In this document: in pieces, positions 3,974 through 28,070 of the stretch
Layout: each line of letters opens with the position of its first letter
Numbering within the stretch: the stretch's first letter is position 1
DNA from: Epilithonimonas arachidiradicis
GTDB lineage: Bacteria > Bacteroidota > Bacteroidia > Flavobacteriales > Weeksellaceae
Direction of reading: 5' to 3'
Length of the DNA stretch: 64,000 nt
Assembly (NCBI RefSeq): GCF_003610695.1
Contig: NZ_RAQH01000004.1
Span: 248,001 to 312,000, forward strand
Translations under genes and position numbers: made by a program
Notes under the pieces: generated by a model
The model's database searches: none
The model's input: the letters and a program-made list of their open reading frames with translations, nothing else
Told to the model about the DNA's origin: nothing

Positions 3974-4058
3974 GGAGCCGGGAACCTGCTGTCCGCTGTA
4001 TCTTTTTCCTTTTTTGCAAAAAGAAAAAAGGATGCCGCTACCATCAGGGCTAGGGCAT
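3974..4058. repeat. Dispersed palindromic intergenic repeat (GGAGCCG...CAGGGCTAGGGC type)
   Basis: A conserved-looking left flank (GGAGCCGGGAACCTGCTGTC) and right flank (ATGCCGCTACCATCAGGGC) enclose a pyrimidine-rich arm around 4002-4014 and a purine-rich arm around 4018-4031 that pair as a hairpin. I recall similar elements repeated between genes in Flavobacteriia genomes. Only one copy of this type is present in the window. It separates the second glucanase from the esterase and GH3 genes. Confidence 0.55.
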
Positions 4059-26024: not shown

Positions 26025-26480
26025 ATGCAGATTTTTGTTGATACCATAGAAGAATATATTTCCCAGATTCCTGAGGAAAGACGAGAAGCTTTTAGAGAGC
26101 TTTTGGAAACTGTTGACAGTAATCTTCCGAAAGGTTTTCAACAGAATATGCAATACGGAATGGCAACCTGGTGTGTTCCTTTGAAAACGTATCCTGCAGG
26201 TTATCATTGTGCGAAAAATACACCGCTTCCTTTCATCAGTGTGGCTTCTCAAAAGAATTTTGTGGCGTTTTATCATATGGGCATTTATGCGGATCCAAAA
26301 CTTTTGGATTGGTTTGTAGGAGAGTTTCCAAAACATTCCAAAAAGAAATTGGATATGGGCAAATCCTGTATCCGTTTCAAAAAGATGGAAGATATTCCAT
26401 TCGAATTAATGGGAGAGTTATGTTCGAAAATCACTGTGGATGAATGGATTGCAACTTATGAGAAAAATTTCAAAAAGTAA
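26025..26480 (+). CDS. DUF1801 domain protein
   Basis: The 151-residue cytoplasmic protein fits the DUF1801 (YdhG-like) family, with VDTIEEYISQIPEERREAF at the start, the MQYGMATWCVPLKTYP core and SVASQKNFVAFYHMG. The function of the family is unknown. The following gene starts 22 bases before its end, so the two share a transcript. Confidence 0.88.
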   Translation: MQIFVDTIEEYISQIPEERREAFRELLETVDSNLPKGFQQNMQYGMATWCVPLKTYPAGYHCAKNTPLPFISVASQKNFVAFYHMGIYADPKLLDWFVGEFPKHSKKKLDMGKSCIRFKKMEDIPFELMGELCSKITVDEWIATYEKNFKK

Positions 26481-27102
26481 TTTACTTTGCTGTATTTTTG
26501 CGCTGTTTTTTTTAACAAGCTGCAAAACTTACAATATTTCGATTTTGGAAAACGGTGATTTACTTTTTGTCCCATCTGTGGATTCTGGGCTGTCTGGAGC
26601 AATTAATAATGTCACACAGACAGAAAAGAAAACATCGTATGATCATATCGGGATCGTGAAAAAAGAAGAACATCATCTATATGTGCTTCACGCTGCGCCA
26701 AAAGGCGGTTCACAAAAACAAAAGCTCAATCATTTCTTAAAAGAACAAACCAAATCCGGACGAGCTATCGACGTGTATCGCTTGAAATCGGCATTCAAAT
26801 CATCCATTCCGGCTTCAGTTTCTAAAGCTGAATCGTTGATTGGAAAGCCTTATAACTTCAATTATATTCTGGATGATAATTCATTTTACTGCTCAGATTT
26901 TGTTGAAAGAGCATTCCGGGATAATCAGATCTTCCAATTGGAGCCAATGACCTTCGTTGACCCTAAAACAGGAAAGACCAATGCTTTCTGGGAAAAGTTT
27001 TATCAGGACAAAAACCTAAAAGTTCCTGAGGGTGAACCTGGATGTAATCCCAATGGTCTTGCTGCATCCAACAAAGTTTACAAAGTAGGAGAGCTGAAAT
27101 AA
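26458..27102 (+). CDS. YiiX/NlpC-P60-like cysteine hydrolase lipoprotein
   Basis: The ATG at 26458 gives 214 residues with a lipoprotein signal ending FLTSC; a start six codons upstream would add nothing recognisable. The domain is a circularly permuted NlpC/P60 (YiiX/YebB-like): NGDLLFVPSVDSG, the His motif YDHIGIV and later the Cys motif FYCSDFVERAF. It probably cleaves amide bonds in peptidoglycan or related peptides at the envelope. It overlaps the DUF1801 gene by 23 bases. Confidence 0.85.
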   Translation: MRKISKSNLLCCIFALFFLTSCKTYNISILENGDLLFVPSVDSGLSGAINNVTQTEKKTSYDHIGIVKKEEHHLYVLHAAPKGGSQKQKLNHFLKEQTKSGRAIDVYRLKSAFKSSIPASVSKAESLIGKPYNFNYILDDNSFYCSDFVERAFRDNQIFQLEPMTFVDPKTGKTNAFWEKFYQDKNLKVPEGEPGCNPNGLAASNKVYKVGELK

Positions 27103-27128: not shown

Positions 27129-27159
27129 TTTGGTGGGAATTAAATAATTTCTATATTTG
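27129..27159 (+). promoter_or_regulatory. Full consensus promoter of the structured leader
   Basis: TTTG (27129-27132), a 19-base spacer and TATATTTG (27152-27159) match the Bacteroidota TTTG/TAnnTTTG promoter at both boxes and at the expected spacing. Transcription should start near 27165, about 130 bases before the DUF4395 gene. Confidence 0.82.
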
Positions 27160-27164
27160 CAATA

Positions 27165-27278
27165 GATTTAGAATTAAATGATAAGCATATTCTCTCATAT
27201 TATGATGTGTAATCCCAAATAAAACATTTGGTAGGAGAGAATGTGTGAAAGCTCTGCCTTACCGGTAGAGCTTTTTTT
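27165..27278 (+). ncRNA. Candidate structured leader RNA or sRNA with three-way junction
   Basis: Between a consensus promoter and the DUF4395 gene lies about 114 bases of foldable RNA. P1 is an 11-bp stem, CATATTCTCTC (27186-27196) with GAGAGAATGTG (27235-27245), one G-T wobble. Inside it are P2, ATTAT (27199-27203) with GTAAT (27209-27213), and P3, CCAAAT (27215-27220) with ATTTGG (27226-27231), joined by 2, 1 and 3 bases. A strong terminator hairpin follows. The compact three-way junction plus terminator is the plan of a riboswitch, but I do not recognise a known class. An independent sRNA is the main alternative. The 5' end is inferred from the promoter. Confidence 0.72.
27248..27278 (+). 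terminator. Intrinsic terminator 20 bases before the DUF4395 start
   Basis: AAAGCTCTGCC (27248-27258) pairs with GGTAGAGCTTT (27264-27274), 11 bp with one G-T pair and a TTACC loop, running into a T tract to 27278. GTAGGAGAG (27231-27239) can pair instead with CTCTGCCTTAC (27252-27262), nine pairs and two bulges, which would open both this hairpin and stem P1. Confidence 0.88.
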
Positions 27279-27297
27279 ATTTAAAATTTGAAATGAT

Positions 27298-27729
27298 ATG
27301 GATAAGACTAACAAATATTATACGGATGAGAACGTGGTGAGATTAACTGCGTTTCTGGTGATCGTGATCGTCGCTGTATCCTTATTTTTCAAATGGTCTT
27401 TACTGGTTTTGCTTTTAGTTTTTGCTTTTGTATTGAGAGCTTTAGGATTATCGATTTCTCCTTTAGCTCTTTTTTCAAAATTTATTTTAAAAATACTGAA
27501 TATCAAACGTAAACCGATTTTTGCAACACCAAAGAGATTTGCTGCAATATTAGGATCGGTTTTCACATTGCTGATTTTCCTATTGACAATTAATGACTTT
27601 TATGATGCAGCTGTTGCATTAGGAGTTGTACTGATAATATTAGCGAGACTGGAAAGCTTTTTCAAGATCTGCGTTGGCTGTTATGTCTATCAGGCTATTG
27701 TTGTTCCGATCCAAAATAAAATTAAATAA
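27298..27729 (+). CDS. DUF4395 family membrane protein
   Basis: The 143-residue protein has about four membrane segments (roughly residues 16-32, 34-52, 82-98 and 103-118) and DUF4395 landmarks: DENVVRLTAF at the start, LRALGLSISPLALFSKFI, ATPKRFAAILGSVF and, at the end, a C-x2-C pair (C125 and C128) in FFKICVGCYVYQ. Family members often occur beside sulfurtransferase or thioredoxin-like genes, and the paired cysteines suggest redox or sulfur handling (inference). It lies 20 bases after an intrinsic terminator, so expression should depend on readthrough of the leader. A NIL-domain gene follows. Confidence 0.82.
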   Translation: MDKTNKYYTDENVVRLTAFLVIVIVAVSLFFKWSLLVLLLVFAFVLRALGLSISPLALFSKFILKILNIKRKPIFATPKRFAAILGSVFTLLIFLLTINDFYDAAVALGVVLIILARLESFFKICVGCYVYQAIVVPIQNKIK

Positions 27730-27748
27730 TCCACCAAAAAATATTACT

Positions 27749-28057
27749 ATGATTTACAAACAAGAAACTACAAATAATGCTTTTTTTGCAACGCCGAAAA
27801 AAGAGATCATTCTGGAAATAGAGCTGAATGGAAAGATAAGATTTGATATTCTCCTTTACACGATCTACAACCATTATAATATCAGTTACAAAATTGTGAA
27901 TGCGCACATCGAATATCTGAATGGAAATAATTTCGGGAATGTTAAACTCTTGTTGAAAATCACTCAGGAAGAAATAATGAAGATTGAAAACTATCTGGCG
28001 CAATACAAATTGTTGAGCAGTAAGATCGATGTTCTGCAAAAAAAGGAAGCTTCATAA
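27749..28057 (+). CDS. Stand-alone NIL-domain protein
   Basis: The 102-residue protein starts at the ATG at 27749, 19 bases after the DUF4395 stop. It lacks a signal peptide and membrane segments. From about residue 16 it follows the NIL domain pattern that normally ends the MetN methionine-import ATPase: an EIILEIELNG strand, a helix, then NAHIEYLNGNNFGNVKLLLKI and a last helix. In MetN this domain binds methionine and inhibits transport. Here it stands alone, with no ABC genes nearby, so it may be a small sensor for a methionine-like ligand. NIL assignment is by pattern only. The stop codon lies in the terminator loop. Confidence 0.7.
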   Translation: MIYKQETTNNAFFATPKKEIILEIELNGKIRFDILLYTIYNHYNISYKIVNAHIEYLNGNNFGNVKLLLKITQEEIMKIENYLAQYKLLSSKIDVLQKKEAS

Positions 28058-28070
28058 AAGCTTCCTTTTT
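28041..28070 (+). terminator. Intrinsic terminator of the DUF4395-NIL unit
   Basis: AAAAGGAAGCTT (28041-28052) and AAGCTTCCTTTT (28058-28069) form a perfect 12-bp stem whose loop holds the stop codon of the NIL gene. The unit is thus closed by terminators at both ends. Confidence 0.9.

Follow-up and report, generated by a model that had tools for sequence, protein, structure and literature searches.

The window, by which we mean the whole stretch of 64,000 nucleotides that was analysed, carries behind a Peptidase_C92 gene a short leader followed by the genes for a DUF4395 membrane protein and a stand-alone NIL-domain protein (Table 1). A first-pass annotation of this DNA had already named both genes, a TTTG-N19-TATATTTG promoter, a T-tailed hairpin 19 bases before the DUF4395 ATG and a further terminator past the NIL gene, and all of these were recovered. 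The promoter, which we take to belong to the Bacteroidetes-type class, was read in the sequence with its 19-base spacer, and the leader terminator was placed between its upstream reading frame and DUF4395, as leader-peptide attenuators require. The DUF4395 protein gave an all-helical model (mean pLDDT 87.6) for which Foldseek returned no PDB match at E <= 0.001; it carries a CVGC motif near its C end, and the cysteines of CxGC do not vary among 33 sequences. The NIL protein scores 31.3 bits in Pfam against a curated cut-off of 24, and its alignment to the MetN model TIGR02314 covers model positions 268-335 at 18 bits, far under that model's cut-off. Downstream of the NIL gene, on the opposite strand, lies what is presumably a murA-like gene.

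Table 1. Positions of the genes and leader elements in the window.
Feature	Position	Strand	Details
Peptidase_C92 gene	26440-27102	+	5' of leader
Palindrome ATTTAATTC-N15-GAATTAAAT, core TTCATACTTATTTGGTGGGAA	27113-27145		candidate operator over the -33 box
Promoter TTTG-N19-TATATTTG	27129-27159	+	TTTG 27129-27132, TATATTTG 27152-27159; read in sequence, conserved in alignment A2
Leader-peptide uORF, ATG to TAA, MISIFSHIMMCNPK-stop	27178-27222	+	candidate control codons ATG ATG TGT at 27202-27210
Hairpin P1, proposed anti-antiterminator	27185-27246	+	27185-27196 with 27235-27246, extended inward; predicted by folding only
Proposed antiterminator	27230-27263	+	GGTAGGAGAG 27230-27239 with 27252-27255, 27257-27258 and 27260-27263; predicted by folding only
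Intrinsic terminator with T tract (attenuator)	27247-27278	+	stem 27247-27275, T tract to 27278
DUF4395 membrane protein, 143 aa	27298-27729	+	PF14340, E 4.9e-25
Stand-alone NIL-domain protein, 102 aa	27749-28057	+	PF09383, E 1.8e-7
Second terminator	28040-28070	+	3' of NIL gene; stem starts within last NIL codons

The leader contains a short upstream open reading frame (uORF) that the earlier annotation had missed. A frame of 14-15 codons is found in 22/22 Epilithonimonas leaders (that of L012 was read off the alignment), with its ATG 12-22 bases past the -7 box in the 21 leaders measured; in three of the five subtype B leaders it reads MKQIFSQMAMMCNTN followed by a stop. Among 17 distinct uORFs, the changed codons have a mean BLOSUM62 score of +1.47 in frame, compared with -0.18 to -1.23 in four shifted frames, and stops interrupt none of the 17 rows in frame but 15-16 of 17 in the shifted frames; since the rows are related sequences, these counts are not independent events. 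Within the frame, length varies by a single whole codon and in no other way. In five rows the alignment sets a one-base gap at the stop codon; this is a matter of placement, as each row translates to its stop. Met-Cys occupies codons 10-11 in all 17, the Cys codon alternating between TGT and TGC, and the stop codons themselves vary (TAA 9, TAG 4, TGA 4). The conserved frame with its Met-Cys codons points to ribosome-mediated attenuation. Counting against attenuation, candidate control codons are fewer in the window's uORF than in textbook attenuators: a single codon for Cys and two internal ones for Met.

Conservation of the peptide beyond Met-Cys (mostly I4, F5, S6 and N12) would also suit a nascent-peptide arrest, in which a leader peptide IFSxxxMCN stalls the ribosome on a small molecule and not on an uncharged tRNA. 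We regard this as improbable. The 5' arm of P1 sits within the uORF and coincides with the IFS codons, which may be kept for pairing, and the uORF of locus L161 has a different first half (MYQNCSN, MYQNCSNMMMCNTN) that replaces IFS yet retains the MMMCNTN end. Moreover, the peptides of the other lineages described below are unrelated and have only Cys/Met richness in common.

The first-pass annotation had drawn the leader as a three-way junction of stems P1-P3 and read it as a riboswitch or attenuator for a sulfur compound. A riboswitch, that is, a leader RNA that binds a sulfur metabolite and governs termination with no need of translation, would fit the strong fold (z -6.3 against shuffles, equalled by none of 200), the terminator ahead of the gene, the sulfur-related neighbours and the similar palindrome found at some SAM-I riboswitches of congeners. 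However, the minimum-energy and centroid folds are a single long hairpin plus the terminator, and the extended P1 hairpin absorbs the bases proposed for P2 and P3. A consensus fold of the 22 leaders, derived from a sequence-based alignment, keeps the terminator only (10 pairs, 3 of them changed on both sides); P1 is absent from it, and the covariation that had been suggested as a check is lacking for P1. The sequence and register of P1 differ between subtypes A and B, and L161, with its different first half of the uORF, has a different and weaker hairpin (-7.1) in its place. When P1 was compared with shuffled arms, it was better (matched by at most 5% of shuffles) in 15 of 20 distinct leaders and no better in L009 (5.7%), L015, L016, L017 and L023; its own arms (-14.6) were hardly better than swapped ones (-13.6), being at least equal in 59%. 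The Rfam check of the leader, also suggested earlier, gave no match at gathering score. What is conserved is the reading frame, with its coding signature in the same bases. On the folding, the P1-less consensus and this coding signature we reject a three-way-junction riboswitch, and consider control by a folded, ligand-binding RNA very unlikely; of the earlier wording we favour the attenuator, which is probably sulfur-related.

The best Rfam scores at the leader, for the sRNAs GibS and BTnc231, were 25.1 and 20.2 bits against thresholds of 115 and 80.4, and an sRNA was rejected on these grounds. Eight related loci compared with Rfam yielded one tRNA as their only match. The one gathering match in the window is a Flavo-1 RNA (RF01705, 67.7 bits) at 3978-4055 on the minus strand.

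By DNA search the leader was found in 22 of 23 Epilithonimonas genomes, the window's own included (identity 100%, and 73-96% in the others), the exception being G011. The NIL gene is likewise missing from G011 alone, and in 22/22 genomes the leader precedes NIL by coordinates. DUF4395 is missing from G011, G014 and G004; in the latter two (loci L014 and L022) the leader stands directly before NIL, and the NIL match of G004 contains a stop. Since the leader lies before NIL in every case, twice without DUF4395, it goes with NIL, and DUF4395 is a first gene that may be missing. The earlier notion that the leader controls a DUF4395-NIL unit by way of a terminator is supported. A covariance model (R1) run on 320 genomes of the family gave 22 strong matches (E 2e-13 or better), all in the genus itself, followed by a next-best match at E 4.8e-4; no related uORF was seen in the 320-base stretches around eight weaker matches. 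No leader was present at eight inspected loci of NIL genes from genus g20, and leaderless DUF4395 genes exist, contrary to the expectation that DUF4395 always comes with the leader. That the leader is a stand-alone sRNA or small-protein gene acting in trans, while read-through or another promoter serves the pair, is hardly credible: its greater conservation than that of DUF4395 (86% DNA against 46% protein identity in G010), the sub-threshold GibS match and weak 9-of-12 sites from a sigma-70 scan at 27178-27206 and 27293-27321 would suit such a gene, but the leader precedes NIL wherever it occurs, both are missing from G011, and the T tract ends just short of the DUF4395 ATG.

A leader-peptide attenuator calls for an antiterminator that excludes both P1 and the terminator and depends on where the ribosome is. 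The segment GGTAGGAGAG on the 3' side of P1 has a second possible partner, the loop and 5' arm of the terminator. Folding was carried out with assumed ribosome footprints and with RNA polymerase set at the end of the terminator loop. For the window's leader, the antiterminator was the predicted fold (-9.0) when the footprint of a stalled ribosome was blocked, P1 was the predicted fold (-21.5) without a ribosome, and no antiterminator formed with the ribosome on the stop codon. Since the finished terminator of the window is more stable than the antiterminator, the switch would have to be kinetic. Once the upstream part was removed, the antiterminator won over the complete terminator in four of five subtype B leaders, in a comparison that covers 10 of the 22 leaders (all but L005-L016), and, folded separately, in L161. 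Its own partners gave -10.3 against -9.1 for swapped ones and were at least equal in 74%. Among 18 distinct leaders it was better than 95% of shuffles in two when the 3' part was shuffled and in four when the 5' part was shuffled, the window's antiterminator being among those that did not beat shuffles. At loci of other lineages, pairing with the terminator exceeded shuffles in L161 and L189, and was no better in L165, L166, L169, L198 and L235. The P1/antiterminator switch is thus a folding prediction that performs weakly against shuffled sequences in the majority of leaders.

Taken together, we consider ribosome-mediated (leader-peptide) transcription attenuation the likely mechanism of the leader, with charged tRNA-Met and tRNA-Cys as what it senses. 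The sequence itself shows the conserved uORF, the terminator and the palindrome, folding suggests the switch, and translation, stalling, the amino acids sensed and the parts played by the palindrome and the proteins are inferred. The model is as follows. RNA polymerase would transcribe the short leader while a ribosome translates the 14-codon uORF. With methionine and cysteine plentiful, the ribosome would get to the stop codon, GGTAGGAGAG would be covered by it or kept in P1, and the terminator would form and transcription would stop before DUF4395. When cysteine (or methionine) is scarce, the ribosome would stall at ATG ATG TGT and mask the 5' arm of P1; the freed GGTAGGAGAG could then pair with the loop and 5' arm of the terminator as it emerges, and transcription would run on into DUF4395-NIL. 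The two products would probably supply cysteine/methionine sulfur or handle its redox state, and a palindromic operator on the promoter probably provides a second, repressor-type layer of control.

This palindrome, absent from the earlier annotation, overlaps the promoter and is largely conserved in alignment A2, with many invariant columns across 22 rows. In the genome, its core pattern has this site as its sole exact match and two others at 3 mismatches. In congeners, similar palindromes precede an aminotransferase-fold gene and some loci of the SAM-I/met type. Copies at 3-5 mismatches were found in 6 of 30 SAM-I loci (L149 and L152-L156), where the background, taken as the best copy in each of 32 shuffled loci, is 6-9 mismatches; those of L150 and L151, at 6-7, are therefore background, and the other 22 showed no copy better than background. 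An Rrf2 protein as the regulator of the palindrome was not supported: the genome has two Rrf2 genes above cut-off, and the best palindrome copies in their vicinity, at 6-7 mismatches, resemble those of shuffled loci.

Several further palindromes were observed. At L028, L029 and L030 the palindrome lies directly 5' of a SAM-I riboswitch; at L028 a Cys_Met_Meta_PP gene (a PLP enzyme of Cys/Met metabolism) follows, and the other two look alike, so that two-layer control by palindrome and riboswitch is possible there. The same type precedes an aminotransferase-fold gene at L025 and L027 (PF00155, tested for L025), which we presume may be a sulfonolipid-type acyltransferase. The g20 NIL genes (L083-L090) carry a TTAGTCTACTAATTTGGTGGACTAA-type palindrome at the promoter, without a structured leader. 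A Chryseobacterium-like palindrome (GTCTACYNNTTTRGTRGAC) matched 2 of 247 genomes of the class against three matches of the reversed control, and is therefore not enriched in the class. One of its two loci, L235, read on the reverse strand, shows a GTCTACTTATTTGGTAGAC palindrome (position 1501 of the turned locus) and behind it a uORF that closes with Cys5 (...LYCCCCC-stop) and a GC-rich hairpin, and the genes behind do not resemble DUF4395; no such uORF was seen at the other, L236.

Of 48 DUF4395 loci collected by a pattern-based, non-exhaustive search, 16 have the Epilithonimonas-type uORF and the remainder lie outside the genus. An upstream uORF with at least 3 Cys per 10 codons was present in 5 of the other 32, compared with a rate of 1.9% in 6400 shuffles. 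Four of these, each unequalled by its 200 shuffles, come with a terminator ahead of DUF4395: MCCMYMCDTC in Parapedobacter (L165, about 180 bases upstream with two terminators in between), Cys7 in Bacteroidetes 37-13 (L169), MNCCC in Cloacibacterium (L189) and MCMCNF...CCMKMRM in a Marinilabiliales MAG (L198). The fifth (L171), with 1% of shuffles as good and no terminator found, was not counted, and a Cys uORF with a terminator directly upstream was absent from 28 of the 32. The Cloacibacterium Cys3 leader (MNCCC) was present in four of five genomes read (L052-L056), being absent in L052, and at L055 the frame opens at an inner ATG only. A natural control came from the same loci, in 153 of their other upstream regions, where the criterion was 10 codons with 3 Cys or with 2 Cys and 4 Cys+Met. 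Six had such a uORF, two of them with a terminator, and two of the six belong to the DUF4395 neighbourhood. At L166 (Bacteroidetes 43-16), an EamA...DUF4395-metN-metI-metQ run is headed by a VCCCMSPGCC uORF, a terminator and a GTCTACTATTTTAGTAGAC palindrome; at L194, the uORF precedes an AhpC/TSA-like gene, then tRNA-Cys and DUF4395, with no evident terminator. The remaining four are background, one of which (L165:3743) has a terminator. A plain poly-Cys DNA pattern matched 378 of 395 genomes and was uninformative.

The neighbours of DUF4395 also bear on cysteine. ARAGORN found nine tRNA genes in the 48 loci, six of them tRNA-Cys (gca), and none in the Epilithonimonas-type loci. The tRNA-Cys stands 11-18 bases ahead of DUF4395 on the same strand at L173, L177 and L194, farther upstream on that strand with a peroxiredoxin-type gene in between at L166 and L168, and downstream on the other strand at L195. 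A metNIQ set with a NIL-bearing MetN lies nearby at L166 (all three genes by Pfam) and L168 (MetN only), and a PALP - Prok-JAB - ThiS/ThiF/rhodanese set at L173. The Cys-coded leaders, adjacent tRNA-Cys, metNIQ and PALP-JAB-ThiF genes offer a lead to the function of DUF4395, namely cysteine/methionine supply; a link of DUF4395 to cysteine was not found in the literature searched, where just two papers mention the family. A broader reading, which we hold tentatively and judge slightly more apt to fail than to stand, is that DUF4395 is a cysteine-supply membrane protein before which unrelated Cys/Met-coded attenuators evolved repeatedly in Bacteroidota, some with a palindromic sulfur operator and elsewhere with an adjacent tRNA-Cys, as a widespread cysteine-limitation module under charged tRNA-Cys. 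The lineages concerned would be Epilithonimonas with L161, Cloacibacterium, Parapedobacter, Bacteroidetes 37-13, the Marinilabiliales MAG and the DUF4395-metNIQ run of Bacteroidetes 43-16.

No paper on this leader was found by title or abstract start in the literature searched, which was mostly without subscription papers. Related systems are known. The uORFC-8-2 motif before cysS of Rhodobacterales, as its account in PMC8632094 has it, likewise joins a short Cys-codon uORF to an intrinsic terminator; its first stem holds the control codons, and a response to uncharged tRNA-Cys was inferred there, as here. It belongs to another phylum and gene and is recognised by tandem Cys codons upstream of cysS, whereas our leader has Met-(Met)-Cys with one Cys codon, DUF4395 downstream and a promoter palindrome. 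Leader peptides of actinobacterial cys/cbs operons (PMC1262725) are also Cys-codon short ORFs before sulfur genes, but the mycobacterial regions are described in that account as being without a conserved terminator, in contrast to the intrinsic terminator here. The mycobacterial polycysteine short ORFs (Canestrari 2020, doi 10.1111/mmi.14498, as cited in PMC9094748 and PMC13236596) again precede sulfur genes; they are called leaderless and polycysteine there, unlike the single Met-Cys pair with intrinsic terminator found here. Closest in taxonomy are the amino-acid operon attenuators of Flavobacterium psychrophilum (PMC9723704), a flavobacterium for which the same mechanism was proposed from 5' regions; section 19 of that source names no Cys/Met or DUF4395 case. 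Such attenuation in the phylum has been proposed from sequence and transcript clues (PMC9723704, PMC7366714). The mechanism is ordinary and its place unexpected: leader-peptide attenuation is known, and this leader, which probably senses cysteine and methionine, would be a new member of that kind. What had appeared to be a riboswitch becomes a testable Cys/Met leader-peptide attenuator in Bacteroidota.
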